Both the position numbers and the translations under genes were made by a program. This document shows, piece by piece, positions 4,535 through 22,235 of a stretch of DNA of 64,000 bases. The notes under the pieces were generated by a model. The model was not told where the DNA came from, did no database searches, and saw only the letters and a list, made by a program, of their open reading frames with translations. This DNA is from Gammaproteobacteria bacterium (GTDB lineage: Bacteria; Pseudomonadota; Gammaproteobacteria; Pseudomonadales; Pseudohongiellaceae), in NCBI GenBank assembly GCA_002730035.1, contig PBYU01000002.1, positions 1-64,000 of the forward strand, read 5' to 3'. Every line of letters begins with the position of its first letter. Position 1 is the first letter of the stretch.

Positions 4535-5431
4535 TTAATTTGCCGAGGATTTATCGAGTCGCGCAGCGATTCGATGCTCATCATCCAACCGAAAGACTAC
4601 ATCGGCGCGACCCGGCAAGCTATTCAGGCAATGCCGGGTGAGTCGCTCGAAGTGCTGTACAAACCTGCTAAGGGCTGCTGCATCCATTAAGCCTTCCCCA
4701 TGTTCGCCACTGCGGGCCCTCATTTTTGATTCCTGCTTACTACGCCATTCGAAAACACGGCCGAAGTCGGGTGCCTGCAACATGATAAGAAACTGGATGC
4801 TGGCAAACAGTGGCTGATATTCCGTGTCCAGTTGCTGGTTGACGAAGTGTCGCCAGCGGCCATCCCTGTCTTCGTTCCTCTCCAGCTCGTTGACGGGCAC
4901 CTCAAGCTCAGCTGCGCTTTGGGCAGCAGCACCTGTAAACCATCCTTCCAGCAGGATCACGTCAATTGGACCGTGAATGGATTTAAACTGGTCTTCACTC
5001 GCACAATCGTCGCGTGACTTATCAAACACCGGGAGTGCGATATGATCGGCGGCAGTTGCTCTGGACAGTTCTGCCAGCGTCGTTATGGCCTGTGCCGTGT
5101 TATGCGTTCCCGGCACACCGCGACTGGCAAGTAGAGGGTGAACCTGCTGGGCCAACTCGGTACGCCGCTCTCTGGAAAGGTAAAAGTCATCCAGAGACAG
5201 CTTGGCGACACGATAGCCTTGTTCGCCGAGCAGTAAGCTAATCAGGCTGGCCAGTGTGGACTTGCCAGTACCCTGTGCTCCGTTTATACCAATGATGAGA
5301 GGCCGCACCGATGGAACAATCAGTGCATCGAGTTCTTCGATTAAGGGCAGGAACCAATTTTCTGCATCGGCAGCATAGGTCTCGGGGAGCGATTCCTGAT
5401 CGACAAATTCCTGAATAAGTTGTGGATACAT
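4535..5431 (-). CDS. P-loop kinase, D-glycerate 3-kinase/Tda10-like
   Basis: This P-loop kinase of the uridine-kinase/glycerate-kinase superfamily has about 298 residues from the chosen start. Walker A reads GINGAQGTGKST, followed by a substrate loop LSLDDFYLSRERR and HPLLASRGVPGTHN, both typical of the plant-type glycerate kinase and yeast Tda10 group. A DVILLEGW motif serves as Walker B. An in-frame ATG at 5497 would add 22 residues; I prefer 5431 because MYPQLIQEFV aligns with the usual N terminus. It probably phosphorylates D-glycerate or another small hydroxy acid in the cytoplasm. It is divergent from the replication pair at 5585. Confidence 0.72.
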   Translation of the reverse strand: MYPQLIQEFVDQESLPETYAADAENWFLPLIEELDALIVPSVRPLIIGINGAQGTGKSTLASLISLLLGEQGYRVAKLSLDDFYLSRERRTELAQQVHPLLASRGVPGTHNTAQAITTLAELSRATAADHIALPVFDKSRDDCASEDQFKSIHGPIDVILLEGWFTGAAAQSAAELEVPVNELERNEDRDGRWRHFVNQQLDTEYQPLFASIQFLIMLQAPDFGRVFEWRSKQESKMRARSGEHGEGLMDAAALSRFVQHFERLTRHCLNSLPGRADVVFRLDDEHRIAARLDKSSAN

Positions 5432-5584
5432 TGTGAATAATGCACGTATAAAACTAAGGACAAAAACAATAGTACTTGTGGCTGTCGATGTGATCAATTG
5501 CGCAGTGTGTTCGAAAATACTCCTGTGTTAGGATGGATTTAGTCCCGGTGATTTCCCATTGAACGATTCACTCTCTCATAATCG

Positions 5585-6730
5585 ATGTCTTCATCTTTAC
5601 TGCCAGAACGGCCCTTACTGATATCGCCGACATTAGCCTCTACAATTGGCCTCGAAGAAGCGGTCATGTTGCAGGTGCTGGCCGACATGATTACCCAACG
5701 GGAGACGGTCAAACGCCCACTCAATCCGCAGCTGCAATGGATCAAGTTGAGCGATGAAGACTTACAGTCAGCGTTTCCGTTCTGGGTGCCGGTCGATATA
5801 AAGCGAGTCCAGAACAGTTTGCAGGCACTTGGCGTGCTACTGATTGATCCTCTCAGTGACGCAAGCCGGAGTAATTATTTCGCGATCGATGACAATTCGA
5901 CCCACGACTCACCCGCAGGACAAGCCACTCGACCTGACGTGGCCCCCAAGCCTAAGCCGGCTGGAACGGCGTCTCTAATACCGACTCACTGGCAACCGGA
6001 TGACAACTGGGTAAAGCTCTGTAAACAACAATCGATTCCGGAAGCGTTTCTTCGCGACCTGGTGCCGGAGTTTGTCAATTACTGGCGTGAGCGGGGCCAG
6101 GCCAGGTTTTCCTGGGGCAACGCATTTTACAAACACGCGCTGAAGAAATGGCGCAATGAACAGACTCGCAAGGGCACTTACGAACTGGCCAGCACCATGT
6201 CCGCTGACTGGAAGCCAAGCCCGGACGCCCTGGGCATTCTGGAGAATGCAGCAATCAACGCCAGCTTTATCGAAGACGCGATTCCTGAGTTTGTGCTCTA
6301 TTGGCGCGAACGGGGAGTCGTGCACGGGGCTTGGAATACCAAATTCATTGAGCATATTCGCAGGCAGTGGGCGAAGTTTTCCTCATCGTTTGGTCTCGAC
6401 GACACTCCACAGGTGATCGCGGATGATTGGCAACCAAGTGTTGAATGTTATGAAATATTACAATTGGCAGAAATAGATGAAGATTATGCCTGTAGCAGAA
6501 TTCCAGAATTTGTGCTGTACTGGAAAGACAGTCAACAGGTGAAATCATCATGGAATACTGTATTCCTGCAGTTCATTAAACAGGATTGGGCAAGGAAACT
6601 GAAAAATGATGAAAAAGAAATTGAAGGCGCAGAGTTAGCTCATGCAGAAGATCAATCCCTTACTGGATCAAGTCAGCGAAGAATTCAAGAAAGGTTCCAA
6701 CGCATTGCCGACCGTAGCTGGGCCGAATAG
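5585..6730 (+). CDS. replication O/DnaT-like protein with three tandem DnaT-type domains
   Basis: The 381-residue protein has an N-terminal winged-helix-like region (about 1-100) resembling phage replication O or DnaT-type N termini, then a Pro/Lys-rich linker. Three repeats follow at about 131-190, 206-263 and 279-337. Each reads W.PS, a helix, then PEFVLYWRERG and a W-N-x-x-F segment ending K/R-x-W. That pattern is the DnaT C-terminal single-stranded-DNA-binding domain, normally present once. The next gene overlaps by 89 bases and encodes a lambda-P-like helicase loader. The pair resembles the domesticated lambda O/P genes described as dopC/dopE. A role in recruiting DnaB at the chromosomal origin is inference. 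Confidence 0.7.
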   Translation: MSSSLLPERPLLISPTLASTIGLEEAVMLQVLADMITQRETVKRPLNPQLQWIKLSDEDLQSAFPFWVPVDIKRVQNSLQALGVLLIDPLSDASRSNYFAIDDNSTHDSPAGQATRPDVAPKPKPAGTASLIPTHWQPDDNWVKLCKQQSIPEAFLRDLVPEFVNYWRERGQARFSWGNAFYKHALKKWRNEQTRKGTYELASTMSADWKPSPDALGILENAAINASFIEDAIPEFVLYWRERGVVHGAWNTKFIEHIRRQWAKFSSSFGLDDTPQVIADDWQPSVECYEILQLAEIDEDYACSRIPEFVLYWKDSQQVKSSWNTVFLQFIKQDWARKLKNDEKEIEGAELAHAEDQSLTGSSQRRIQERFQRIADRSWAE

Positions 6731-7358
6731 ACAAACTGAAACCCAGCCTGGTCGCATAGAAGAATCTGCAGCAGAGTCCGCCGAAACGCCTGTGCTGGAT
6801 CGCGTAGATGCCATAAACCAGGTCTTCGCCGAGTTTGAATTCGCCTATCACAACCAGTTTCACAAGGCATTCGCCGATGTCGAGAGTCTTGCGATCGCCA
6901 AGAAATACTGGCTGAGTAGTCTGGAAAATTATTCCCCTACCCAGATAGTACAGGCTGCCAAGGCGGTGATTCGCTCCCAGGAATATCTGCCCTCGATTGC
7001 CATAATTTTGCGTGCCTGCGAGCAGGGCAGGGATCTTTTCGGGCTGCCGTCGGTTCGGCAGGCTTACCTGGAAGCCTGTGCCGGGGCCTCTCCCAAGCGG
7101 GAACAGCACTGGAGTCACGAGGCCGTGTATTTTGCCGGGAAGTCAGCAGGTTGGTATCTGCTGGCAAATGAACCGGAAGCAACCGCATTGCCGGTTTTCC
7201 AGTACCATTATGAAATCCTGTGTAGGCGGGTGGTTAATGGCGAGCAATTATCAATCGAACTGCCCCCGGCGCTCACCGAAAAAATTGAGCGCAAACTGGA
7301 TAAGCAAGAGACTCGGGCTAGGATCGCCAGGATGAAGCAGGAGCTGGGATTGAAATAG
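6642..7358 (+). CDS. phage lambda P-like replicative helicase loader (DopE-like)
   Basis: The 238-residue protein has a low-complexity N terminus (about 1-50), then a helical domain matching the order of lambda P: INQVFAEF, a helix ending KKYWLSSLENYSPTQIVQAAK, the YLPSIAIIL and GLPSVRQAYLEAC segments, WSHEAVYFAG, and a C-terminal ARIARMKQELGL. Lambda P binds and loads DnaB helicase and is about 233 residues long. No phage structural, integrase or lysis genes lie nearby, which argues for a resident chromosomal loader. The start overlaps the upstream gene by 89 bases, so the two are probably co-translated. The assignment is by recall of the family, not alignment. Confidence 0.7.
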   Translation: MQKINPLLDQVSEEFKKGSNALPTVAGPNRQTETQPGRIEESAAESAETPVLDRVDAINQVFAEFEFAYHNQFHKAFADVESLAIAKKYWLSSLENYSPTQIVQAAKAVIRSQEYLPSIAIILRACEQGRDLFGLPSVRQAYLEACAGASPKREQHWSHEAVYFAGKSAGWYLLANEPEATALPVFQYHYEILCRRVVNGEQLSIELPPALTEKIERKLDKQETRARIARMKQELGLK

Positions 7359-19095: not shown

Positions 19096-19704
19096 TTAGT
19101 AGTCGATGCCCTTCTGAACCTTAACACCGGCATGAAAGGCATGTTTGGTTTCGCTCAGCTCCGATACCGTATCTGCCAATTCCAACAATTCCTTCGAGGC
19201 GTTGCGCCCGGTAACCACGACGTGTTGGTTCGGGGGTCGATTCTCCAATGCGCTTAAAACCGTCGGCTTATCGAGATAGCCGTAGGTGAGCATGTATGTC
19301 AGTTCATCGAGGATAACTAAATCAACCGATTCATCCTGCAACAGCGCTGCTGCCTTTTCCCAGGTAGCAACCGCTGCCGCAATATCTTTCTCCCGGTCTT
19401 GAGTGTCCCAGGTAAAACCGGTTTTCATAACATAAAATTCCACCAGAGGGTTTTCTTCGAATAGCATGTGTTCTCCACAATCCCAAAGCCCCTTGATGAA
19501 TTGAACGACGCCGCAGCGCATACCGTGGCCAACGCTTCTAGCCAGCATGCCGAAAGCGGAAGTGCTCTTGCCCTTGCCATTACCGGTTAACACCACCATC
19601 ACACCCTTATCGATGGTCGCCTGAGCGATTTTTTCATCGATGTGCTCTTTCTTTCTCTGCATAGCCTTCTTGTGGCGCTTATTGCGTTCTTCTATTTTAG
19701 ACAC
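19096..19704 (-). CDS. cobO: corrinoid adenosyltransferase
   Basis: This 202-residue CobO/BtuR-type ATP:cob(I)alamin adenosyltransferase has a basic N terminus (about 1-28), the P-loop TGNGKGKSTSAFG, VQFIKGLWDCGE and the Walker B-like LVILDELTYML. It attaches the 5'-deoxyadenosyl group to imported or salvaged corrinoids. It begins 44 bases after the btuB stop on the same strand, so it probably shares the btuB transcript and its cobalamin riboswitch. Confidence 0.95.
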   Translation of the reverse strand: MSKIEERNKRHKKAMQRKKEHIDEKIAQATIDKGVMVVLTGNGKGKSTSAFGMLARSVGHGMRCGVVQFIKGLWDCGEHMLFEENPLVEFYVMKTGFTWDTQDREKDIAAAVATWEKAAALLQDESVDLVILDELTYMLTYGYLDKPTVLSALENRPPNQHVVVTGRNASKELLELADTVSELSETKHAFHAGVKVQKGIDY

Positions 19705-19748: not shown

Positions 19749-21626
19749 CTAAAAGCTTACCCGAATACCAATATAGGAAGCCTGCTCCGGCGAATTGTAA
19801 TCCAGAATTTCCTGGTACGCTTCGTCAAAGGCATTTTCTAATCTGCCGACTATCTCAATGGTCTCTGTCAGCTTAAACCTGGCCGTCATATCCAGCACAT
19901 CGAAATTATCCAGCACATAATCTACCGGGCTGCCAAACACCGCATCTACTGAGTCTTTCGAAACACGGTAGAAAGCATTGATGTTTAATCGATTGTCCAG
20001 GCCGGAATAAGACACTCCAAGATTAGCTAGTTGTTCCGGCCTCCTTAAGCGTTGTTGACCATTGGGGCGTTCAGTTTCGTTAAATGTGTAGGTGGCTAGT
20101 AGCTGCCAATTTGCATTCAATGTGTAGTCAGCAGTTAACTCGAATCCTTCTGAGGTGCTGACACCTAGATTCTGTAGATAACCGCTAAAGGACGCCGCAT
20201 CGAAATAGATGGCGTCTTCAACTTCTTGATCGAAATACACTGCTTCGAGACGTAGATCATTGCCGATGAAATATTCGGCACCTATCTCGAAGCCATCACT
20301 ACTCTCTTCGGTCAAAACAACCAGGGAAGCCGGTGGATATGCAAATAGTCCACCATTGTAGGCCATTTCGGATAGGCTGGGCGCGCGGAATCCGGTGCCG
20401 AAGCTGGCTTTGACTTTCAGTGTATTGCTGCTGCCTAGACTGATCAAATAGGCGGTGCTGAGACGATAGCTTGTGTGACTGCCAAAATCATCATTCTCAT
20501 CCTGCCGAATCCCTGCGGTAAAAAACAGACTATCAGAGAAGTCGCTCAAAACTTCAAGATAGTATCCTTCGTTGTCGCGAGTTTCTCCGTTCGCGAATTC
20601 TTCCTCGAAATCGGCGCCAAACACCAGATCGAACCCGGGCAGATTGTTCAGGTTGCCAATGTATTCGACTCTATCCAACTCGCCTATCGAACTAAATCCG
20701 GGTACGCCGAGTGTATAGTTTTGACTTTCTGTATCAGTCGATGAATAGGCCAGAGAGTGGCTCATGTTTTCGTTGCTATAGCTGCCAGATATTCTAGTGG
20801 CTTCTAGGTCGTAATTTGAATCACAATCATGCACGGTCCCGCCTGAGTAACAGCCGTCGAATTCAGTTTCACCCTGAACATCGCGATGCACTATATCGAA
20901 GCGGAAGCCCTCACCCAGATTAAAGCCCGCCCTGGCATGCACGGTGGTATTACTATAACCGTCATCATCCATGAGCTCTGCATCGGAAATCCGAGTATTG
21001 AATCCGTCAGTCTCAAAATCCGTTGCCGTGACATAGAAGTCTCCAATCTCGTTACCCCCTCCGATAGAGGCGGCAAGCTGATCGGTACCGAAGCTGCCAG
21101 ACTGACCGTTTAAAGAGCCGGTGAGACCTTCAATATCGCGTCTGGAACTAATATTGATGACGCCGCCCGCATCTGCCCCATAGCTCAAGCCTTGAGGACC
21201 TCGCAGTACTTCAATTTTGTCTACTCCGGAGCTCATCACGTGTTCAAGCTGCGGCCCCACTTGTGTGCCGGCTGGATCTGACAGTTTCAGCCCATCGAAC
21301 AGAGCCAGAGTGCGAAAGCCTTCTTCACCACGAATTCGTAGAGAAGTTTGTGTGCCCATGCCTCCGCTTCGGCTTACGCCGATGGCAGGTAATTGTCGAA
21401 TCACATCGGTAAGCGCGGAATTGCCATAGGCACGGATTTCCTGCTCGTTTAACACAGAGATCGATGTACCTATCTGTTTTAGTGGCACTGGTACGCGGTT
21501 CGCGACCACTACAATTTCTTCTAATGGATTTTCAATGGCTTGATTTGAAGTGGTTTGCCCGTCAGCCGAGGTTTGCATTAGCAAAGTGATCGCTGAGCAG
21601 GTCAATAGCGATAGAGTAGTTTTCAT
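19749..21626 (-). CDS. btuB: TonB-dependent vitamin B12 receptor BtuB
   Basis: The 625-residue outer-membrane receptor has a signal peptide (cut near SADGQ), a TonB box-like EEIVVVANRVP, a plug domain (about 50-165, with IEVLRGPQGLSYGADAGGVINI) and a 22-strand barrel ending in an aromatic residue (IRVSF). Its length and plug resemble E. coli BtuB. It is preceded by a cobalamin riboswitch on the same strand and followed by cobO, which supports corrinoid as the ligand. Confidence 0.93.
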   Translation of the reverse strand: MKTTLSLLTCSAITLLMQTSADGQTTSNQAIENPLEEIVVVANRVPVPLKQIGTSISVLNEQEIRAYGNSALTDVIRQLPAIGVSRSGGMGTQTSLRIRGEEGFRTLALFDGLKLSDPAGTQVGPQLEHVMSSGVDKIEVLRGPQGLSYGADAGGVINISSRRDIEGLTGSLNGQSGSFGTDQLAASIGGGNEIGDFYVTATDFETDGFNTRISDAELMDDDGYSNTTVHARAGFNLGEGFRFDIVHRDVQGETEFDGCYSGGTVHDCDSNYDLEATRISGSYSNENMSHSLAYSSTDTESQNYTLGVPGFSSIGELDRVEYIGNLNNLPGFDLVFGADFEEEFANGETRDNEGYYLEVLSDFSDSLFFTAGIRQDENDDFGSHTSYRLSTAYLISLGSSNTLKVKASFGTGFRAPSLSEMAYNGGLFAYPPASLVVLTEESSDGFEIGAEYFIGNDLRLEAVYFDQEVEDAIYFDAASFSGYLQNLGVSTSEGFELTADYTLNANWQLLATYTFNETERPNGQQRLRRPEQLANLGVSYSGLDNRLNINAFYRVSKDSVDAVFGSPVDYVLDNFDVLDMTARFKLTETIEIVGRLENAFDEAYQEILDYNSPEQASYIGIRVSF

Positions 21627-21765
21627 AAAGAGTTCCCAATGAATCTGCTTGCCGTTTCCAGCAAGAAAATAATTTCAGTTTCACGAGGGAGGGGGTGCGG
21701 TAGTAGAACCTGAATCAGGTCCAACCACTGATGTAGCCCTCCGCTGCATCCAGGTAGTAACTTTT

Positions 21766-21899
21766 CAGGTTGGTATCGGACTTCTTAGCAAATCACGTAT
21801 TCGGATAACCCAGTGAATACGAATCTGCTGTCACCGTTGCGGGGGCAGTGTTGGAATTGAACCAACTTCCCATTAAATCTGGCTAAAGCCAGATACCTG
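21766..21899 (-). promoter_or_regulatory. cobalamin riboswitch controlling btuB-cobO
   Basis: Read on the minus strand, the element begins CAGGT (P1), continues with GGGAAGTTGGTTCAATTCC, the core TGCCCCCGCAACGGT, and ends near GTCCGATACC then AACCTG, the P1 partner. These are the conserved boxes of the adenosylcobalamin riboswitch. Downstream at 21707-21712 the minus strand offers a second CAGGTT that could compete for the 3' P1 strand as part of an expression platform. Corrinoid binding should repress btuB and cobO. Confidence 0.93.
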
Positions 21900-21909
21900 A
21901 TAAAGCGTA

Positions 21910-21936
21910 ATTGCATAGTCAGTACGACTATGCAAT
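21910..21936. repeat. perfect 11-bp inverted repeat at the btuB transcript start
   Basis: ATTGCATAGTC (21910-21920) and GACTATGCAAT (21926-21936) flank the 5 bases AGTAC. The dyad lies between the predicted btuB promoter and its riboswitch, at about the predicted first transcribed bases. It could be a 5' stabilising hairpin or an operator. Confidence 0.7.
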
Positions 21937-22002: not shown

Positions 22003-22031
22003 TTGACGAGCCGATAGTCACTGCATATAAT
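22003..22031 (+). promoter_or_regulatory. predicted strong promoter for the btuCDF operon
   Basis: TTGACG (22003-22008) and a consensus TATAAT (22026-22031) are separated by 17 bases. The predicted start lies a few bases before the plus-strand riboswitch at 22043. It is back-to-back with the btuB promoter, with 30 bases between the two -35 elements. Confidence 0.7.
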
Positions 22032-22042
22032 CAGCTGCGCTT

Positions 22043-22206
22043 CAGGTGCCTTTAATCTCAAGAGTTTTAACTTCAGATTTGGGTTAAACGGGAACGTCGG
22101 TGCGAATGATTACTGCAATGAAAGTACATTCCATGCCGCGGCTGCCCCCGCAACGGTAACCATGCATGCACACAGTGTGTAGTGATGGGAGCCCGATACC
22201 GGCCTG
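22043..22206 (+). promoter_or_regulatory. cobalamin riboswitch controlling the btuCDF operon
   Basis: The element starts CAGGTGCC, contains AAACGGGAACGTCGGTG, the core CTGCCCCCGCAACGGTAA and the terminal GAGCCCGATACC, and closes with GGCCTG, complementary to the 5' CAGG. All conserved cobalamin riboswitch boxes are present. It directly precedes a terminator-like hairpin and the cobQ remnant and btuC. Confidence 0.93.
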
Positions 22207-22235
22207 AAAGACAGTAGCCTGGAAGGCCTGTCTTT
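22207..22235 (+). terminator. expression-platform hairpin of the plus-strand riboswitch
   Basis: AAAGACAG (22207-22214) pairs with CTGTCTTT (22228-22235), with an inner GCC/GGC stem around TGGAA. It abuts the 3' strand of riboswitch P1 and ends in four T, so it looks like a riboswitch-controlled terminator, although the T run is short. Confidence 0.55.

Follow-up and report, generated by a model that had tools for sequence, protein, structure and literature searches.

Chromosome replication has helicase loading among its core steps, and a pair of overlapping genes in a gammaproteobacterium of the family Pseudohongiellaceae bears on how this organism loads DnaB. The pair lies in a window of 64,000 nucleotides (positions 1 to 64,000 of contig PBYU01000002.1, assembly GCA_002730035.1), where an earlier note made from the letters alone had read it as a domesticated version of the phage lambda O and P genes. 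Brezellec and colleagues reportedly described, in Genome Biol Evol in 2017, adjacent chromosomal genes of this derivation, DopC and DopE, in gammaproteobacteria without dciA and dnaC/dnaI. DopE also appears under its own name as a family of loaders in a paper of 2026 (PMC13326638).

Layout of the gene pair and its chromosomal setting

The upstream, dopC-like gene (5585..6730, + strand) encodes a protein of 381 residues with a winged-helix N terminus, three DnaT domains and a C-terminal tail reading D-R-S-W-A-E, and the dopE-like gene (6642..7358, +) encodes a lambda-P-type helicase loader of 238 residues. The DnaT domains span residues 133–195, 206–268 and 279–341 (5981..6169, 6200..6388 and 6419..6607, all +) and match PF17948 with an E value of 2.8e-63, the only Pfam match in the protein. 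The N-terminal part models as an initiator-like winged helix (about residues 13–106; 5621..5902, +; modelled elements H15-21 to E96-101), with alignments to the RepA initiator and DnaB and a match to phrog_6493. DopE matches PF06992 (phage lambda P) at 37.9 bits against a curated cut-off of 26, so that the lambda-O-like/DnaT gene is followed immediately by a homologue of lambda P, which is the DopC/DopE layout. The two genes share 89 bp (6642..6730, +), one frame coding for the DopC tail and the other for the DopE N terminus. The earlier note's description of a winged helix followed by three tandem DnaT domains, a lambda P homologue downstream and an 89-base overlap was thereby confirmed in each part. 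When the start codon in relatives was taken as the nearest by alignment to that of the window, 70 of 76 measured loci (from 80 named ones) also had an overlap of 89 nt, and the remaining six had 47–107 nt.

DopE shares 23–32% identity with P-like proteins in 20 phage records, and its PF06992 match above cut-off is a likeness to lambda P and to P-like loaders such as those of Pseudomonas phages PAE2 and PAJU2. Its structure matches lambda P on DnaB with a high alignment rmsd (8.6). Unlike these loaders, DopE is a resident chromosomal gene around which no phage genes were found. Domain searches of DopC and DopE returned no AAA+ match in either protein, which separates the pair from the AAA+ loaders DnaC and DnaI, and Pfam gave no match to PF05258/DUF721 (DciA) in either. 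The 2026 paper files lambda P among the AAA+ loaders (PMC13326638), a placement that the domain matches do not support for DopE. Among other DopE sequences, those of two genomes (G221 and G072; loci L298 and L301) have frames with an in-frame stop, which could reflect sequencing error, a different start or decay, and two contigs titled Klebsiella pneumoniae and Rhodoferax sp. (L248 and L260, from MAGs) carry this clade's DopE and DopC under titles that look wrong.

The surroundings of the pair contain genes for a Cu/Zn efflux transporter, a kinase-like protein, EttA, GlyA and NrdR as well as the riboflavin-nusB-thiL genes, and no phage genes were found among the neighbours scanned. This setting is shared by relatives: the 46 named full-length 12-kb loci include EttA (45 loci), GlyA (42), NrdR (39), RibD (38), the kinase (37) and the transporter (35), with EttA in 6 and GlyA in 3 of 52 other loci, which are short and mostly from other families. 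The closest named sequences (80 loci) come from uncultured gammaproteobacteria, several of them labelled Pseudohongiella or OM182. Values of dN/dS between 0.03 and 0.18 for each gene in five of six pairs (the sixth uncomputed because of N) indicate that dopC and dopE are under purifying selection. Judged by these housekeeping neighbours, the context shared with the nearest relatives and the low dN/dS, the pair is resident, in agreement with the earlier claim that no phage genes surround it. Placement inside an intact prophage, which the earlier note had named as counting against its reading, was not found, to judge by the neighbours scanned. We also counted towards residency, and not towards a mobile element, that both genes are retained in three genomes where they are unlinked. 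Unlinked dopC and dopE (L367, L368 and L369 versus L292, L370 and L371) were seen in three genomes of one genus in the same family; elsewhere the genes overlap.

The pair could instead be a prophage remnant or a phage-exclusion device, its O and P proteins kept to titrate DnaB or to block superinfecting lambdoid phages. O and P are phage families, and published work reports an exclusion phenotype in cells that contain a portion of lambda's replication region (PMC3349717). However, the housekeeping neighbours (EttA in 45 of 46 full-length loci), purifying selection on both genes, the mutual exclusion with DciA described below and the lack of a PADLOC match make this explanation very improbable.

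Two other features of the window were recorded. The kinase-like ORF at 4535-5497 (−) has no Pfam match at 1e-5 and stands beside the pair in 37 of the 46 full-length named loci. Two divergent cobalamin riboswitches (21751-21915, −, and 22027-22221, +) lie beside a TonB receptor (19752-21626), and a BtuR-type adenosyltransferase is encoded at 19099-19704.

Other loaders in the source genome and the order

A PF05258 (DciA) search of the source genome, whose assembly is 93.5% complete, gave 0 matches. The PF06992 search of the same genome missed DopE itself, showing that whole-genome family searches are no proof of absence, and the dciA slot was therefore examined directly. Published work places dciA of gammaproteobacteria between lpxC and secA (PMC5109545). 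On source contig C61, lpxC, an M23 peptidase gene and secA are all present, and the 122-bp gap between lpxC and the peptidase gene contains no dciA. Of eight DciA-bearing relatives, L035, L037, L038 and L039 have dciA flanked by lpxC on one side and the M23 peptidase gene on the other, and L041 has it between lpxC and secA; in 8 of 8 at least one of lpxC, the peptidase gene and secA stands beside dciA, three showing only one flanking gene. The ancestral dciA slot is present but empty in the source genome.

PF01695 (DnaC/DnaI-like) matched three proteins of the source genome, which NCBIfam names IstB, DnaA and Lon, leaving no DnaC or DnaI among these three matches. The IstB on contig C101 was rejected as a DnaC candidate, scoring 284.6 bits as the IS21 helper IstB against 63.8 for the best 'ATP-binding protein' and 32.2 for DnaC. 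A complete dciA or dnaC elsewhere, named by the earlier note as counting against its reading, was found by neither search, and the 122-bp slot contains no dciA. Because DciA has no match, its slot is empty and the DnaC/DnaI-like hits are IstB, DnaA and Lon, DopCE is probably the only DnaB loader of the source genome; a divergent loader may exist elsewhere in it, given that the family search missed DopE and that part of the candidates were scored.

One such candidate would be a divergent DciA that still loads DnaB, with DopCE as an accessory. Across the order PF05258 often matches weakly (113 of 121 over the cut-off; weakest best match E 7e-4), so that a diverged copy could escape it, and the assembly is 93.5% complete. 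Nevertheless, the slot between lpxC and the M23 peptidase gene is assembled and measures only 122 bp, where dciA fills it in L035, L037, L038 and L039, and we regard this reading as very improbable.

The two systems exclude one another across relatives. Of 58 relatives, 47 have both DopC and DopE, 8 have DciA, none has both systems and three, with genomes 79, 84 and 88% complete, have neither; by genus, DopCE and DciA account for 14 and 8 of 22. We then drew 390 genomes evenly from the order, defining strong DopE by E <1e-40; all counts for DopE, DciA and DnaT in this set are among the matches listed, with part of the first-look candidates scored in many genomes. On that basis at least 238 genomes have a DopE-like protein, at least 228 a strong DopE, at least 121 DciA, none both strong DopE and DciA, and 38 neither system. 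DnaT-type proteins, again among the matches listed, accompany DopE in 225 of 228 strong-DopE genomes and DciA in 1 of 121 genomes, at E 7e-4.

Ten genomes carry weaker DopE-like matches, seven with DciA and three without (among the matches listed). The seven were considered as cases of true co-occurrence and rejected, all of their P matches being weak (E 8.6e-31 or worse); because they exist, the mere presence of a P gene is compatible with DciA. Three of these loci were fetched (L312, L315 and L317) and two placed in the tree, L315 among phage P proteins and L312 with a Halomonas phage P. The weak matches without DciA are in G075 and G418, whose DopE frames are short (82–132 aa), and in G432. 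Published work reports Cellvibrionales without both dciA and dnaC/I (PMC5109545). The exclusion between DopE and DciA, as far as protein matches tell, repeats both that report and the DopC/DopE proposal with more genomes and in a broader taxonomic range. DopE would share the functional niche of DciA, in that 0 of 121 DciA genomes has a strong DopE among the matches listed; it differs in that DciA has an unrelated KH-type fold (PMC9912922).

These data support the earlier reading of a domesticated lambda O/P pair by domains, overlap, resident context and DciA exclusion. The genes match the DopC/DopE kind as reportedly proposed in 2017, sharing with it adjacency, chromosomal location, lambda-O/P derivation and a genome without dciA and dnaC/dnaI; this organism adds a member whose nearest named relatives, differing from the published cases, are of Pseudohongiella/OM182 type. 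The pair is very likely the host's DnaB loader. That DopC/DopE is a domesticated lambda-O/P-type system that replaced DciA in this role, working in the manner proposed below, is the reading that we consider likely.

DnaT domains and C-terminal tail of DopC

In the E. coli DnaT-ssDNA structure, Phe124, Tyr127 and Trp128 are among the residues that hold the bases, with two bases per subunit (PMC4132743). Each DopC repeat is a C-terminal-type ssDNA-binding domain of DnaT and carries the base-contacting aromatic triad (F163, Y166 and W167 in domain 1; F236, Y239 and W240 in domain 2; F309, Y312 and W313 in domain 3). All nine residues are invariant in an alignment of 45 DopC sequences. Among distinct three-repeat DopC proteins, the triad Phe is kept in every repeat of 118 of 118, and the full F-x-x-Y-W in 113, 114 and 104 of 118 for repeats 1, 2 and 3, respectively. 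With the triad retained in each repeat, all three domains look ssDNA-competent, and the three-repeat form may, as the earlier note suggested, bind ssDNA more tightly. DopC differs from E. coli DnaT in having three domains per chain to the one of DnaT, a winged-helix N terminus, and a P-type loader as partner in place of DnaC. The N-terminal domain of DnaT oligomerises and binds PriB; the N-terminal part of DopC had no Pfam match. The Bacillus co-loaders DnaD and DnaB differ in acting with the AAA+ loader DnaI, according to the 2026 paper (PMC13326638), and a fold in common would be no proof of common descent. The arrangement of the domains was not predicted in the DopC model (pTM 0.32; tail pLDDT <50), and Foldseek alone found no match to DopC with E <0.001.

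In a midpoint-rooted tree of DnaT domains (63 columns, many weak nodes) that included the repeats of 23 DopC proteins, repeats 2 and 3 grouped by position, each with 23 of 23 in one clade, and repeat 1 formed no clade. Both clades also include some phage sequences, and that of repeat 3 one-domain sequences. To judge from this clustering by position, triplication probably preceded the divergence of the families that share it.

The triplicated DnaT is not peculiar to the source organism. Of 46 relatives, 42 have a DopC with three DnaT domains (that of G021 is truncated where its contig stops), one has a DopC with four and three have a DopC with a single domain; in a wider draw 22 of 28 DopCE families have a winged helix with three DnaT domains (four domains in two f16 members). 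DopC of families f2, f8 and f35 has one DnaT domain and, at about 150–180 aa, is too short to hold a winged helix as well, and that of f6, f27 and f38 has one DnaT domain with a longer N-terminal part; exceptions are L296 (f41) with one DnaT domain in 257 aa, and L298 (f47) and L316 (f8) with two each. To judge from the short proteins of f2, f8 and f35, neither the triplication nor the winged helix can be needed for basic function.

In a tree of 135 P-type proteins (188 columns, midpoint-rooted, many weak nodes), f6, f27 and f38 group apart with some phage P proteins, and the short and three-domain groups fall together in a single clade with support of 0.978, which includes one IMG/VR contig. 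This suggests at least two domestications, DopE probably having two phage origins, a number that is not firm because deeper nodes have support of 0.7–0.94. The P-type protein of one IMG/VR contig (L104) falls inside the bacterial DopE clade and is possibly a bacterial fragment or a recent capture. Three genomes of family f35 (G082, G119 and G175) contain 5, 3 and 7 P-like matches each, and of the P-like proteins of G082 three group with phage P and one with bacterial DopE.

The DopC tail (D-R-S-W-A, residues 376–380; 6710..6724, +) or a similar sequence ends DopC and is invariant in 45 of 45 aligned proteins. Among proteins from bacterial loci, counting prophage loci and fragments, the pattern D.[STDNE]W falls within the final 30 residues in 118 of 118 with three repeats, 2 of 2 with four, 4 of 5 with two and 23 of 26 with a single domain. 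Other ORFs of at least 150 aa from the same loci served as control and have it in 62 of 3038 cases. Among viral proteins it occurs in 9 of 9 with two domains and 1 of 9 with one, and on the latter count phage proteins of DnaT type do not as a rule carry the tail. Its codons lie inside the overlap, and its conservation could therefore have been caused by the dopE frame. However, in G291, G311 and G330 dopC and dopE lie on separate contigs and all three retain the DopC tail, and no P gene was found beside the two-domain phage proteins; for these reasons the tail was probably selected in DopC itself. Lambda O contacts lambda P, and by analogy with that contact we propose that the tail is a docking site for DopE. 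At the N terminus of DopE, 131 of 144 distinct sequences have a T-x-A-G pattern, which was considered as a functional motif and rejected as probably a by-product of the DopC tail in the other frame; it is kept in one of the three unlinked DopE.

Phage proteins with two DnaT domains and the proposed working of DopCE

Searching IMG/VR with the DopC alignment returned 12 loci, nine encoding a protein with two DnaT domains, three with one and none with three. The nine two-domain proteins (contigs L092-L100) end in a DopC-type tail, and the DopE profile found no P-like protein on these contigs, which range from 7.6 to 57.9 kb and may be incomplete. L097 has a Mu-like early region, with an rve match (below the Pfam cut-off), an AAA protein, DUF3164, GemA and Mor, in which the two-DnaT gene (5079-5585 of that contig; D-R-S-W-A-type tail) lies directly before gemA. 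Parts of the same region occur in L099 (AAA protein, DUF3164) and L094 (rve match below cut-off); L096 was judged by similar ORFs only, the ORFs of L092 are not Mu-like, and L093, L095, L098 and L100 were left out of this judgement. Misassignment of host sequence to phage was considered for the two-DnaT contigs and rejected, given the Mu-type early genes on L097, L099 and L094.

A second viral scan recovered seven of these contigs again and added one distant locus (L366, 30% identity). In a set of 50,697 named phage records, the L097 protein had only 4 partial matches, DopC matched 34 records and none over 80% of its length, and no named phage with a two- or three-domain protein was found. Against the 390 genomes, the phage two-DnaT alignment matched mostly DopC itself and did not reveal prophage-carrying hosts. 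In the open-licence literature searched, we came across no paper that describes a DopC with three DnaT domains or a Mu-like phage with a DnaT array.

Mu replication in E. coli needs host PriA and DnaT (PMC3325207). Since a DopCE host would offer no separate DnaT, the simplest reading suggested by these contigs is that Mu-like phages of such hosts would bring their own DnaT array and tail and borrow the host's DopE-DnaB. A narrower role for the pair is another reading, in which DopCE would reload DnaB at stalled forks as an equivalent of PriA-DnaT-DnaC, with oriC loading by DnaA and DnaB directly or by an unrecognised loader. E. coli DnaT is described as a restart protein (PMC13377028, PMC4129139), a Mu-like contig, of a phage type dependent on restart proteins, carries a DnaT array, and the short DopC type has no room for a winged helix. 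The factor that is missing, however, is DciA and no restart factor (DciA in 0 of 228 strong-DopE genomes, among the matches listed), and we consider confinement to restart unlikely.

In the working that we infer for a loader that replaced DciA, and in which the pair would be essential, DopE, a P-type ring-opener in which no AAA+ domain was found, would hold DnaB, and DopC would mark the loading site. The mature E. coli preprimosome has a filament of DnaT C-terminal domains, four of them visible, on lagging-strand ssDNA (PMC13377028). The three joined DnaT domains of DopC may be a prefabricated piece of such a filament, ready to lie on ssDNA, where E. coli must build it from separate DnaT subunits; at about two bases per domain, each DopC would cover about six. 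The winged helix would place or oligomerise DopC at the origin or on DnaA, and the D-x-S-W tail would dock DopE with DnaB. Because DnaT itself serves fork restart, DopC probably serves both oriC initiation and PriA-directed restart.

We put forward a wider proposal tentatively, as somewhat less probable than not. DopC would be a pre-fused DnaT filament uniting DnaA-directed initiation and PriA-DnaT-directed restart in one adaptor, with its tail as a recruiting plug for DopE-DnaB; Mu-like phages of hosts without DnaT would carry a two-DnaT protein with this tail and no loader, calling host DopE-DnaB to transposition forks; and replacement of the loader by phage O/P genes would have occurred at least twice in one order, since a short DopC with one DnaT domain persists in some families and an O/P pair domesticated on a separate occasion is present in others.

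The DopE loader type occurs in at least 228 of 390 sampled genomes of one order (among the matches listed), and we found no experiment on it in the open-licence literature. Its anatomy offers a model open to testing, made up of linked DnaT domains on ssDNA, a short tail and a P-type ring opener, of which the phage proteins with only a DnaT array and tail may be a natural dissection. The informative features, namely the triplicated DnaT, the tail and the mimics in phages, turn the proposal into specific experiments. If the model is true, origin initiation and fork restart would be linked through one protein in these bacteria, and a core replication part would be swappable for phage genes more than once.
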